Assembly (NCBI GenBank): GCA_021604805.1
Contig: BQJR01000005.1
Location: 1 to 64,000, forward strand
DNA from: Planctomycetota bacterium
GTDB taxonomy: Bacteria; Planctomycetota; B15-G4
DNA length: 64,000 nucleotides
Direction of reading: 5' to 3'
The notes under the pieces are model-generated. The model ran no database searches, had not been told where the DNA came from, and saw only the letters and a list, made by a program, of their open reading frames with translations. This document shows, one piece after another, positions 18,788 through 23,143 of the stretch (its first letter is position 1; each line of letters opens with the position of its first letter). The position numbers and the translations under genes were made by a program.

Positions 18788-19522
18788 TCAGTTCGCTGCC
18801 GCGTGCTGCGCTTCCCGCCGTCGCGCCGCGTCGACACACTTGCGCACCCAGTAGATGTCGAGCCCGATGAGCGGCACCAGGCAGGCGAGCACGAAGTAGG
18901 CGACCGAATGCAGCTCGGGCGTGAGCGTGTCGAGCCACACCGCGCGCACGAGCAGCGTGACCACCGCCACCCACAGCGGCAGTCGCCAGAAGACGAGCAC
19001 GCGCAGGCGCAACTTGGCCGCGAAGACTTCCCAGTTCGGTTTCCCGAAGTGACGACCCCAGGCTTCGAGCCCGGTGCAACAGGGCATGATCTCGCTGGCG
19101 AGTGAGATCAACACGAGCGCGTGACCGAGCCCCATGTGCAACGACACGCCGTAGGCCAGCAGGCCGAGCGCGTGGTGCGCGATGAGATCGGGCCGCTGCT
19201 TGTTGCCGAGCACGAAGCGCCCGTAACCCATCGACGCGAAGTCGGCCAGCAGGTGCCCGTAGGCGACGGCCACGCCGCGCCCCATCCAATCATCGACTTC
19301 GTGCGCGTAGAGGAAGCCCACGTCCCAGTGCGGCAGCGCGCCGATCAGGCCCGCGAAGCCGATCGAGGTGAGGATCAGCGCCGCGATGCCGCGCGCCATC
19401 TTGAAGGCGCGCTCGAAGTCGTGCTCCTGCCTGCGATAGAGCCCGACGTGCAGACTGAGGAAGAAGAACCCGGCGGCGAAAATGACGGTCAGCACGGGCG
19501 ACTCCCGGTTCCAATCGGGCAA
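18788..19522 (-). CDS. TLC-domain-like integral membrane protein
   Basis: This 244-residue protein has about six or seven hydrophobic segments. The middle part matches the pattern of TRAM-LAG1-CLN8 (TLC) proteins: YGHLLADF (residues 88-95), then a membrane-embedded double histidine (DLIAHHALGL, His116-His117) and an acidic residue in the next helix (LASEIMP, Glu144). In eukaryotic ceramide synthases the paired His are needed for N-acylation of sphingoid bases. Here the full Lag1 motif is not visible, so a TMEM56/FAM57-like lipid-handling role is the safer reading. The gene is divergent from the glycosyltransferase; the first in-frame ATG of that gene (19482) lies inside this one. Confidence 0.6.
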   Translation of the reverse strand: MPDWNRESPVLTVIFAAGFFFLSLHVGLYRRQEHDFERAFKMARGIAALILTSIGFAGLIGALPHWDVGFLYAHEVDDWMGRGVAVAYGHLLADFASMGYGRFVLGNKQRPDLIAHHALGLLAYGVSLHMGLGHALVLISLASEIMPCCTGLEAWGRHFGKPNWEVFAAKLRLRVLVFWRLPLWVAVVTLLVRAVWLDTLTPELHSVAYFVLACLVPLIGLDIYWVRKCVDAARRREAQHAAAN

Positions 19523-19805
19523 GCAGGGTAGCAGGAGACCGCGCTCCGACTATGCTGCTCGCACTGCGAGTCCGAACCGTGAATCGGAAGCGCACCCAGG
19601 AACGGGAGCAAGCACACTGCCGCGATCTCACTGGTTCACACTGGGACTGCTCTTGTGTGGCGCCCTGCTGCTCAAGCTCCAGTACCACGCGGAGTTCGTG
19701 GAGCAAGAGGTGCTCGCGCACGCGCCCTACGGTGATTCGGTGGTGTATCTCGACGAGGTCGCGCGCTTGTTCGGTGACGCCGCAGTTCGCGGGGGGGGGG
19801 GGGGG
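19482..19805 (+). CDS. N-terminal part of membrane glycosyltransferase, frame ends at the 15-G tract
   Basis: This frame encodes a first membrane helix (SHWFTLGLLLCGALLL) and then APYGDSVVYLDEVARLFG. That phrase is the start of the extracytoplasmic loop of GT-C enzymes of the PMT_2/ArnT kind, with the conserved acidic residue. At 19791-19805 it enters a run of 15 G and then drifts into a non-coding frame (stop at 19949). The rest of the protein continues in another frame from 19805. The first in-frame ATG is 19482, inside the divergent TLC-like gene. No ATG or GTG occurs closer, so the real start is unresolved and could be a rare codon. Confidence 0.6.
19791..19805 (+). repeat. 15-G homopolymer, candidate phase-variation tract
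   Basis: Fifteen consecutive G lie inside the coding part of the membrane glycosyltransferase. With 15 G the protein is split; with 13 or 16 G the two halves read as one. A ribosomal slip of -1 at the tract would also join them. Tracts of this length slip readily during replication and also during sequencing, so both phase variation and an assembly error are open. Confidence 0.95.
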
Positions 19806-19831
19806 CGTTTTACAAACCTCCGCTGTACAGC

Positions 19832-21190
19832 GTGCTGCTGCATCTCGCCGGAGCCATCGACGTCGCAGGGCAGGGGCTGGTCCGCTCCCTGCAACTCGCC
19901 ATGGGGCTCGGCATTCTTGCGAGCGTGTTTCTGCTCGCCGCTCGCTTAGCGGGCGTGATCGCGGGCGTCACCGCCTTCGTGTTGCTCGCGCTCTACGCGC
20001 CTGTGAGCTTTCAGGAGACGAAGCTGCTCGACACGACCCTGGGCCTTTTCACCTCGATGTCGGCGCTGCTGCTTCTCGAACGCAACCTGCGCACGCGGAC
20101 CGCGACCGGCGCGCACTTCGCCGGCGGTGTGTGCTTCGGCATCGCGGCGCTGGCGCGCCCCGTCAACCTGCTGATCGCACTGGCCTTCGCGCCTGTGGTG
20201 ATGCGCCAAGGCAAGGCATCCGCGTGCGTTTTCCTTGTAGGTGTCGGCGCCGCGCTCGCCCCCATTACGCTCTACAACTTCCGCGGATCGGGCGACGTCG
20301 TGCTGATCAACTACAGCGAGGGGCACTCGCTCTTGGTGGGCAACAACCCCAACGCCCACGGCATGTACAACTTGCCACCCGGTTATCCCGACGGCGTGCT
20401 CAACGAACGCGCGGTGGAGCAGCAGATCGCCGCGCAACGACTTGGTCGCCGCGCATCACCCAACGAACAGCGCGGCGTGTCGATGAGCGACGCGCTCGAA
20501 TACATGATGCAGCATCCGGGTGAGCTGCCGCGACTGCTCGGCGACAAGCTGCGCTTCGCCACCACCGCCTACGAGGTCGACGACAACTACTCGATCCACC
20601 GCGAGCGCGAGCGACTCGGCTTGCTGCGCCCGCACGTGGTGCCCTTCGCGCTGCTGCTGGCGCTCGCCCTCCCGGCCTTCCTGTTGAACACTTGGCGACG
20701 ACGCTGGCTGCCCGCACTGCCGCTGCTCACGACGCTCGCGAGCTTGCTCGTGTTCTACACCAACATACGCTACCGCCTGCCCGCCGCGCCGCTGTTGGCG
20801 GTGGCGGCCGGGGTCACACTCAGCCAGATCCGTCACGCCACGCGCGCGCGACAGCTTGCCGCGCTCGTCGTCGCCGGTGCGTGCTTCAGCGTGTCGACGT
20901 GGATGCCGCTGCCGTACCCGCGCGCCGAGCTCGAACGCTCGTCGCAACAGTTCGACGTGATCCTCGACCTGCATGCCGCGGGCACGCTGCTGCCGCGCGG
21001 CGAGTCGCGCGCCGCCGCCGGCGCCCTCAGCGACGCCTGGCGCAACGGCGAGGCGCGCGCGCTCGTGGAGGCCTGGATCGAGGCGGCGCTCGCCGATCTC
21101 AGCGCCAGCGAGCGAGCGGCTTTTCTGGCCGAGTTCCGGGATGCAGCGGAGACCGACCCGCAACTCCGAGCGGTTCTCGACGGAACCTGA
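19832..21190 (+). CDS. C-terminal part of a PMT_2/ArnT-type membrane glycosyltransferase
   Basis: This 452-residue frame is the main body of a GT-C glycosyltransferase: about nine hydrophobic segments (residues 20-390) and a C-terminal soluble stretch. Coding evidence begins before the ATG, at 19805, with AFYKPPLYSVLLHL, the conserved PPLY loop motif of the family. Hence the protein starts upstream and the frame is interrupted at the G tract. GT-C enzymes use polyprenyl-phosphate sugars to modify lipids, proteins or surface glycans outside the cytoplasmic membrane. The motif EVDDNYSIHRERERLGLL is unplaced. The acceptor is unknown. No other glycan genes adjoin it except the divergent TLC-like protein. 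Confidence 0.75.
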   Translation: MLLHLAGAIDVAGQGLVRSLQLAMGLGILASVFLLAARLAGVIAGVTAFVLLALYAPVSFQETKLLDTTLGLFTSMSALLLLERNLRTRTATGAHFAGGVCFGIAALARPVNLLIALAFAPVVMRQGKASACVFLVGVGAALAPITLYNFRGSGDVVLINYSEGHSLLVGNNPNAHGMYNLPPGYPDGVLNERAVEQQIAAQRLGRRASPNEQRGVSMSDALEYMMQHPGELPRLLGDKLRFATTAYEVDDNYSIHRERERLGLLRPHVVPFALLLALALPAFLLNTWRRRWLPALPLLTTLASLLVFYTNIRYRLPAAPLLAVAAGVTLSQIRHATRARQLAALVVAGACFSVSTWMPLPYPRAELERSSQQFDVILDLHAAGTLLPRGESRAAAGALSDAWRNGEARALVEAWIEAALADLSASERAAFLAEFRDAAETDPQLRAVLDGT

Positions 21191-21283: not shown

Positions 21284-23143
21284 ATGTTCGACGCCTGCTC
21301 ACGACTCGTCCGCCGGTCCGACACCGGCCTCGCGGCGCTGCGCCTCCACATCGGGCTCGCCCGCCGACACGAACCGCGGCGCTCCCGGCTCGCGCGCATG
21401 GCCGGCGTCGGCTGCACGCTGCTGCTCGCGGCCACCGCTCAACTCGCAGCCCAAGACGCCACCTACACCTGGGACGGCATCAACAACGACGACGAGCTGG
21501 GCAGCACCGTGAAGGTCATCGGCGACGTCAACGGCGACGGCGTGCGCGACGTGGCCGTGGGCAGTCCGCACGCGGGCTACAAGATCACGACCCCGTTCCC
21601 GATCGTGCTCCCCGACGTGGGCCTCGTGCGCATCTACTCGGGCGCCAACGGCACGCTGCTGCGCAACTGGTACGGCAACATCGGCGGCGGCGAGGAGTTC
21701 GGTTTCTGTGTGGCCGACGCCGGCGACAACAATGGCGATGGCTTCGACGACGTGCTCATCGGCGTGCCGAGCGCCGACTACTTCACGAGCGTCGAGAGCC
21801 CGAGCGGCGCGGTCGAGTTGCGCTCCGGCGCCGACGGAAGCCTGCTGCACGAGTGGCGCTCGATGTTCCCGAACTCGCGCTTCGGCCACGCCGTGGCTGC
21901 GGGCGACATGGATGGCGACGGCCTCTTCGACATCGCCATCGGTCAGCCCCAACGCGATCACTTCCAGGCGAACCCCTCCGATCCGGTCAATGAAGGCACC
22001 GTGATCGTGTATCGCGGCAGTGACTACGGCCTGATGATCTCGATCCCCGGCGACAACTACACGCTCGGCAGCCCGATCCGTCGCTACATCCGTGAGGAGT
22101 GGGGCAACGCGCTGGCTTTCGTGGGTGACACCGATGGCGACGGCTTCGGCGAACTCTTGGCCTCGGCACCGCGCAGCTGCTTCGAAGACATCACGCCCGG
22201 CATCTACCTCGACGACGCAGGCTTCGTGCTGCACTTCGAACCCGCGCTCGGACCGCTCGGCAATCCCTTCGGCGGCGATACAGGCGATCAACTCGGCGCC
22301 GCGCTCGACCTGCTCGGCGATGCCGATGGCGACGGCACGGTGGAGTTCCTCGTGGGCGCGCCCGGCGCTGGCTTGTGGGGTGAAGTCGTCGTCTTCGAGA
22401 ACCAGATCCCCCGGCTGAGGTTCCCCGGCACGAGCACGCGTCCGCTCGGCCGCGTCGTGGCGGGCATCGGCGACGCCAGCGGCAACGGCCGTCCCGACAT
22501 CCTGCTCGGCTCGCCGCTCGCCGATCCGGGCTCACCGTTCATGAAGATCAACGCGGGCGTGGTCGAGGTGCGGCTCGGCATCAACGGCACGCTGCTGCGC
22601 AGCTTCGAGGGCGCCAGCGGCGGCGATCAACTCGGGTGCTCCGTCGACGCTGGTGTGCTCGACACCGAGTTACGCGATCAGCTCGTGCTCGGCGCGCCCT
22701 ACGCCGACGCGGGCGGCAACAACCGCGGACGCGCGCAACTCTTCCCGAGCGGACTCTGCGACGCGCCCGCGTCGTGGGAGAACTTCGGCGCGGGTCTCGC
22801 CGGCACCCTCGGCGTCCCCGCACTGTTCTCCTTCGGCGCACCGAAGCTGGGCACCAGCTACTCACTGGCCGTGGGCAACTCGCTCGGCGCACCCACGCTG
22901 GCCTACTTGTTCCTCGGCTTCGCGCAGCAGTCGCTGCCGATCAAGGGCGGCACGCTGCTGGTGAACGCGCAACTGATCCAAGGCTTCCCGCTCCCCGCCG
23001 GCACCAAGTTCCTGAGCCTCGCGATCCCTGAAGACACGGCGCTCTGCGGCCTCGACGTGTTCGGCCAGCTGCTGCAGCTCGACCCGGGCGCACCGCTCGG
23101 TGTGTCGTTCAGCGAGGGGATGCGCATGACGCTGGGGCACTGA
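21284..23143 (+). CDS. secreted FG-GAP/integrin-alpha-repeat protein with lineage C-terminal module
   Basis: This is a 619-residue protein. A long basic N region precedes a signal peptide core (MAGVGCTLLLAATAQLAAQ, about residues 39-57). Some seven FG-GAP repeats follow, each with a DxDGDG- or DxNGDG-like calcium loop (for example DVNGDGVRD, DNNGDGFDD, DMDGDGLFD, DTDGDGFGE, DADGDGTVE), forming a beta-propeller (about 65-490). The last 120 residues are a separate beta-rich module (GAGLAGTLGVPALFSFG onwards). A similar module ends the protein at 61632-63203. Such proteins are surface or secreted; ligands are unknown. GGAG lies before the ATG at 21284; an internal ATG at 21398 is an alternative. 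Confidence 0.85.
   Translation: MFDACSRLVRRSDTGLAALRLHIGLARRHEPRRSRLARMAGVGCTLLLAATAQLAAQDATYTWDGINNDDELGSTVKVIGDVNGDGVRDVAVGSPHAGYKITTPFPIVLPDVGLVRIYSGANGTLLRNWYGNIGGGEEFGFCVADAGDNNGDGFDDVLIGVPSADYFTSVESPSGAVELRSGADGSLLHEWRSMFPNSRFGHAVAAGDMDGDGLFDIAIGQPQRDHFQANPSDPVNEGTVIVYRGSDYGLMISIPGDNYTLGSPIRRYIREEWGNALAFVGDTDGDGFGELLASAPRSCFEDITPGIYLDDAGFVLHFEPALGPLGNPFGGDTGDQLGAALDLLGDADGDGTVEFLVGAPGAGLWGEVVVFENQIPRLRFPGTSTRPLGRVVAGIGDASGNGRPDILLGSPLADPGSPFMKINAGVVEVRLGINGTLLRSFEGASGGDQLGCSVDAGVLDTELRDQLVLGAPYADAGGNNRGRAQLFPSGLCDAPASWENFGAGLAGTLGVPALFSFGAPKLGTSYSLAVGNSLGAPTLAYLFLGFAQQSLPIKGGTLLVNAQLIQGFPLPAGTKFLSLAIPEDTALCGLDVFGQLLQLDPGAPLGVSFSEGMRMTLGH

Follow-up and report, generated by a model that had tools for sequence, protein, structure and literature searches.

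Long homopolymer runs can serve as genetic on/off switches, and slippage at G tracts switches glycan genes in Campylobacter and Neisseria. The locus described here resembles the poly-G and poly-C glycan genes of these organisms in that a frame-setting G run of at least 8 bases lies inside a gene of the glycosyltransferase type. It differs from them in lying outside a glycan cluster, in having relatives that lack the tract, and in belonging to an environmental draft genome with mismatch repair present. Slipped-strand switching at homopolymers is described as established in other bacteria in excerpts of PMC3711429. In the portions consulted of the survey of 99 genomes by Orsi et al. (PMC2831843), poly(A) and poly(T) tracts were enriched, and poly(C) and poly(G) tracts were generally under-represented. 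The present tract is like the inactivating homopolymers of that survey in lying towards the 5′ end of its coding gene, where an indel can inactivate, and unlike the enriched poly(A) and poly(T) tracts in being poly-G. Literature searches on phase variation in Planctomycetes or combined with environmental terms returned no paper on the subject among the matches listed.

The window, i.e., the whole stretch of 64,000 nucleotides analysed, contains a run of exactly 15 G at positions 19791–19805. This is its longest homopolymer; the second-longest G run has 5 bases, and the longest C run has 7. The features surrounding the tract are as follows.

18788–19522, minus strand: divergent neighbour, a membrane protein with a weak TLC-domain match (Pfam E 0.0011, below the cut-off).
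19617–19790, plus strand: N-terminal part of the glycosyltransferase-like gene, encoding the first membrane helix as well as the conserved Asp (frame mod 3 = 0; codon scores and alignment of 21 relatives).
19791–19805, plus strand: the 15-G tract at the junction of both frames, read from the sequence; the sole G/C run longer than 11 in the genome.
19805–21190, plus strand: remainder of the gene, from AFYKPPLY to the stop (frame mod 3 = 2; codon scores and alignment).
19806–19949, plus strand: unrelated, stop-ended tail read at the assembled length without a slip (part of ORF 19482–19949).
21284–23143, plus strand: downstream neighbour, an FG-GAP repeat protein (Pfam E 1.1e-27).

The first-pass annotation claimed that this tract breaks the frame of the gene, and the claim was confirmed by the sequence, by codon scores, and by relatives that carry the gene in a single frame. 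Codon-usage scoring in 90-base windows favoured frame mod 3 = 0 from 19620 to 19769, with the preference lasting to about 19780, and then frame mod 3 = 2, starting at about 19800–19805. The upstream frame remains open through the Gs and meets a stop at 19947–19949. The downstream frame starts with GCG at 19805, encodes AFYKPPLYS... to 21187, and closes with a stop ending at 21190, in agreement with the earlier observation that the PPLY motif resumes one frame over after the tract; the 461 codons following the tract contain no stop and no further break, and show native codon usage. The accompanying arithmetic, by which 13 or 16 G or a −1 slip would rejoin the halves, was also correct. Because the halves lie in differing frames, synthesis of the full-length protein depends on tract length, as in phase-variable loci. 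The possibility of two separate working ORFs was rejected, since a product begun at the earliest GTG of the second frame, at 19832, would miss the conserved AFYKPPLY motif.

To place the tract among the runs of its genome, we counted G/C runs on its contig (C5; 214,854 bases) and in the whole draft genome (G000; 4,466,358 bases in 11 contigs, 89% complete). Contig C5 contains 172 G/C runs of at least 5 bases, 31 of at least 6, and 3 of at least 7, each added base cutting the count approximately 5- to 10-fold, and none of 8–14 bases; this steep drop indicates that the 15-mer is not a product of chance. The 44 runs of at least 8 bases in the genome comprise 28 of length 8, 5 of length 9, 9 of length 10, 1 of length 11, none of 12–14, and 1 of length 15, and the 11-mer, the sole other run of at least 11, lies outside predicted coding segments. 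A chance origin was therefore rejected, the tract being far outside the run-length tail of both contig and genome, and the gene shows one of the marks of a phase-variable locus, a long simple repeat inside or immediately ahead of a gene that far exceeds chance expectation. Moreover, GGG accounts for 558 of the 5,597 Gly codons in the coding segments of C5, and this scarcity favours slippage growth over codon choice as the source of several consecutive GGG codons.

Several features of the draft genome emerged from the same counts. Run lengths peak again at 10, a pattern attributable either to runs growing by slippage or to homopolymer calling reaching saturation. Among the runs of at least 8 bases on contigs C1–C10, the G residues lie on the minus strand in 38 cases and on the plus strand in 6, and on contig C2 the orientation flips between about 780 kb and 1.0 Mb; our guess is a replication-strand effect. 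The small contig C9 (L078; 3,887 bases) is rich in microsatellites with low coding signal and looks like eukaryotic contamination.

The assembled length of the tract may itself be wrong. Were nearly all cells to carry a frame-keeping G run, the gene would be intact and the break would exist only in the consensus, a reading that we consider possible, though somewhat unlikely. Excerpts of two benchmark studies bear on it. According to Sereika et al. (PMC9262707), the vast majority of homopolymers are resolved in R10.4 consensus only when shorter than 11 bases, those of at least 10 bases will probably stay problematic, and complete genomes from 1,598 genera included 18 with homopolymers of more than 10 bases at a frequency above 1 per 100 kb. 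The Tatajuba paper (PMC8808543) states that Illumina data can create spurious homopolymer indels, which increase above all beyond 14 bases. As far as these excerpts go, homopolymers over about 10–14 bases are beyond reliable consensus (PMC9262707; PMC8808543). A Viterbi scan of C5 with a codon model trained on the contig identified the tract as the sole clear frame break within a gene; at about 77.3 kb and about 145.9 kb, junctions on the same strand showed overlaps longer than usual and may represent further breaks. This coincidence of the sole clear break in 215 kb with the sole run longer than 7 also favours a miscount, as does the otherwise intact state of the gene. On the other hand, so long a run is generally expected to vary between cells, and a fixed length would be surprising. 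Elsewhere in the genome, clearly intragenic G/C runs of 8–10 bases lay within a single unbroken coding segment in 7/7 cases (3 further runs at segment edges were excluded), suggesting that shorter runs are otherwise assembled correctly; the clean frames elsewhere in C5 are uninformative regarding the 15-mer, because the other runs on that contig are all of 7 bases or fewer. An artefact substituting G for sequence was rejected, as the loop has roughly the length usual in the family. If tract length proves constant, the locus serves as a warning that one long G run can make a gene look broken even where the draft genome is clean elsewhere.

Next, we compared the gene with its relatives. The downstream half matched in 22 of the 58 relatives' genomes (E ≤1e-10), in 11 of the 392 genomes drawn from the phylum (E ≤1e-25), and in 2 of the 14 genomes at class level (E ≤1e-40), each count including its own genome; the genomes searched for relatives included none of the same genus. 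Three more matches to the query, at 30–32% identity, were found in the draft genome itself. Searches of genome contigs with the window protein returned no relatives, and a search with a two-sequence alignment returned one, L088, apparently the same contig as that of the closest relative (G008/L008; 9,838 bases). Viral contigs yielded no relatives. Both halves lie in one open frame in all 21 aligned relatives, which almost without exception have the Asp ahead of the tract position and P-L-Y beyond it. These 21 differ from one another in both the length and the sequence of the loop at the tract, where the longest homopolymer is 7, in one relative; the closest relative (G008; 45% identity over nearly the whole half) reads GTSAGGPEESPG in the loop, with a longest run of 3. 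Comparison of tract lengths in related genomes had been proposed as a check; the tract occurred in 0/21 relatives, so that the locus lacks the retention of the repeat across related genomes that marks phase-variable loci, although the closest relative is only 45% identical, a distance at which the absence says little about the loss of a young site.

The family assignment held in part. Pfam PMT_2 was matched by 19 of the 21 aligned members (E up to 0.01) and a single TPR model by up to 14 of them, supporting the proposed membrane glycosyltransferase as PMT_2-like, but the closest relative alone scored 19.5 bits against a Pfam cut-off of 26.1. The locus is like the PMT_2 GT-C glycosyltransferases, often accompanied by TPR repeats, in that its halves align with single-frame relatives having D before and P-L-Y after the tract, and unlike them in that the downstream half from the window, searched alone, matched neither PMT_2 nor TPR. 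The predicted structure model, with a mean pLDDT of 48.8, was too poor to judge a GT-C fold; comparison with solved structures gave nothing meaningful, and an NCBIfam search with three proteins gave no match. Judged from the alignment, the gene product resembles a PMT_2-type (GT-C) membrane glycosyltransferase with the tract in a length-variable first loop. We take this site to be the first loop outside the membrane of GT-C enzymes, which bears a catalytic acid, and a break there would cost all later helices.

The start of the N-terminal part is less clear. No comfortable ATG, GTG, or TTG was found: a start at ATG 19482 would place the gene in overlap with its divergent neighbour, and one at TTG 19653 would remove part of the first helix. 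On sequence grounds, a possible start codon is CTG 19617, located behind GGGAG. The problems with both the ATG and the TTG would fit a pseudogene, in which growth of the tract knocked the gene out and the remainder is now drifting, as would the out-of-frame consensus and the three further matches in the genome, which could make the gene dispensable. We nevertheless regard decay as quite unlikely, given the stop-free codons after the tract with their native usage and the identity retained with the closest relative over nearly the whole half. The match of both halves to single-frame relatives and the unbroken downstream frame indicate that the gene is not visibly decaying.

Recoding would also reconcile an intact downstream frame with a broken reading, the DNA being fixed out of frame and slippage of RNA polymerase or the ribosome yielding some full-length protein. 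Slippage by −1 within the tract is enough to connect the two frames, and homopolymers are described as slippery for both RNA polymerase and ribosomes in excerpts of PMC3711429. However, RNA structure downstream of the tract did not exceed that of shuffled sequences (z +1.13 for 19806–19870; 0.01 for 19810–19900), and the site was found in 0/21 relatives, whereas programmed sites tend to be conserved. The locus thus lacks the combination of slippery site, stimulatory structure, and conservation that characterizes programmed frameshifting or transcriptional slippage, and these two observations make recoding less likely; we consider it very unlikely.

Runs as long as 15 G are expected to slip at replication. 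The reading that we prefer, and to which we give about an even chance, is that of a single PMT_2-like (GT-C) gene with a real, slippage-grown G run in a length-tolerant loop, the exact length being beyond the assembly and the cells being a mixture of on and off states. The run would have grown by replication slippage inside a loop tolerating changes in length, where in-frame length variants would be viable, and tract length probably differs between cells. Frame-joining lengths would give the whole protein, and other lengths would give a product that carries only the first membrane helix with the conserved Asp and then the unrelated tail, with the corresponding effect on expression. On/off switching would then be a physical consequence of so long a run. 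Both MutS and MutL are present in the draft genome, with scores over the family cut-offs, so slippage should be lowered, not abolished. This explanation is weakened by the presence of mismatch repair and by the lack of a glycan cluster around the gene, and also in that the consensus length may be wrong, to judge from the excerpted benchmarks (PMC9262707; PMC8808543). A candidate contingency switch is a plausible lead rather than a result; should cells differ in tract length, the range of glycosyltransferases switched on and off by slippage would come to include an environmental lineage.

We also inspected the genomic context of the gene. One side encodes a cation-efflux protein, a SpoU methylase, and the weakly TLC-like membrane protein, and the other side encodes the FG-GAP protein, a Na/Ca exchanger, a P-type ATPase, and a TrkA protein. 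No glycan genes were found among these neighbours, and the gene stands alone. Since the neighbours are not glycan genes, the surface-glycan reading of the first-pass annotation found no support from the setting; the labels contingency locus and surface glycan are inferences.

To learn how such runs are distributed across the phylum, we examined G/C runs of at least 12 bases, which occurred in 214 of the 392 sampled genomes. A total of 78 run loci were inspected (the window included; several overlap), 39 of which were dropped because the run lay within 300 bases of the locus end. Among the other 39, two besides the window were clearly intragenic according to codon-position G+C. In L118 (86–2573), which comes from a different genome of the phylum, the frame of a Ser/Thr protein kinase gene changes at 12 G just past the kinase domain; this may be either a further candidate like the present one or a further miscount. 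In L107 (867–3011; another genome of the phylum), an in-frame run of 27 C lies in an S41 peptidase gene with a PDZ domain. The remaining run loci shown were antisense or non-coding in appearance, as judged by eye. The accepted cases being a kinase and a peptidase, they argue against a glycan-specific pattern, and long intragenic G/C runs were rejected as a phylum-wide mark of surface genes. A broader proposal appears unlikely to us, namely that the tract is a poly-G contingency switch of a GT-C glycosyltransferase, newly arisen in the genus in an uncultured environmental lineage, and one of several reversible switches fed by the G/C runs common in the phylum (a protein kinase in another genome) among bacteria not known to be pathogens.

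Additionally, runs of 9 to 17 C directly 5′ of an ATG were observed in three loci (L075:1499–1508, L051:1500–1508, and L148:1496–1512), with TTGACA just ahead of the C run in L148; these runs are possible promoter or leader tracts.
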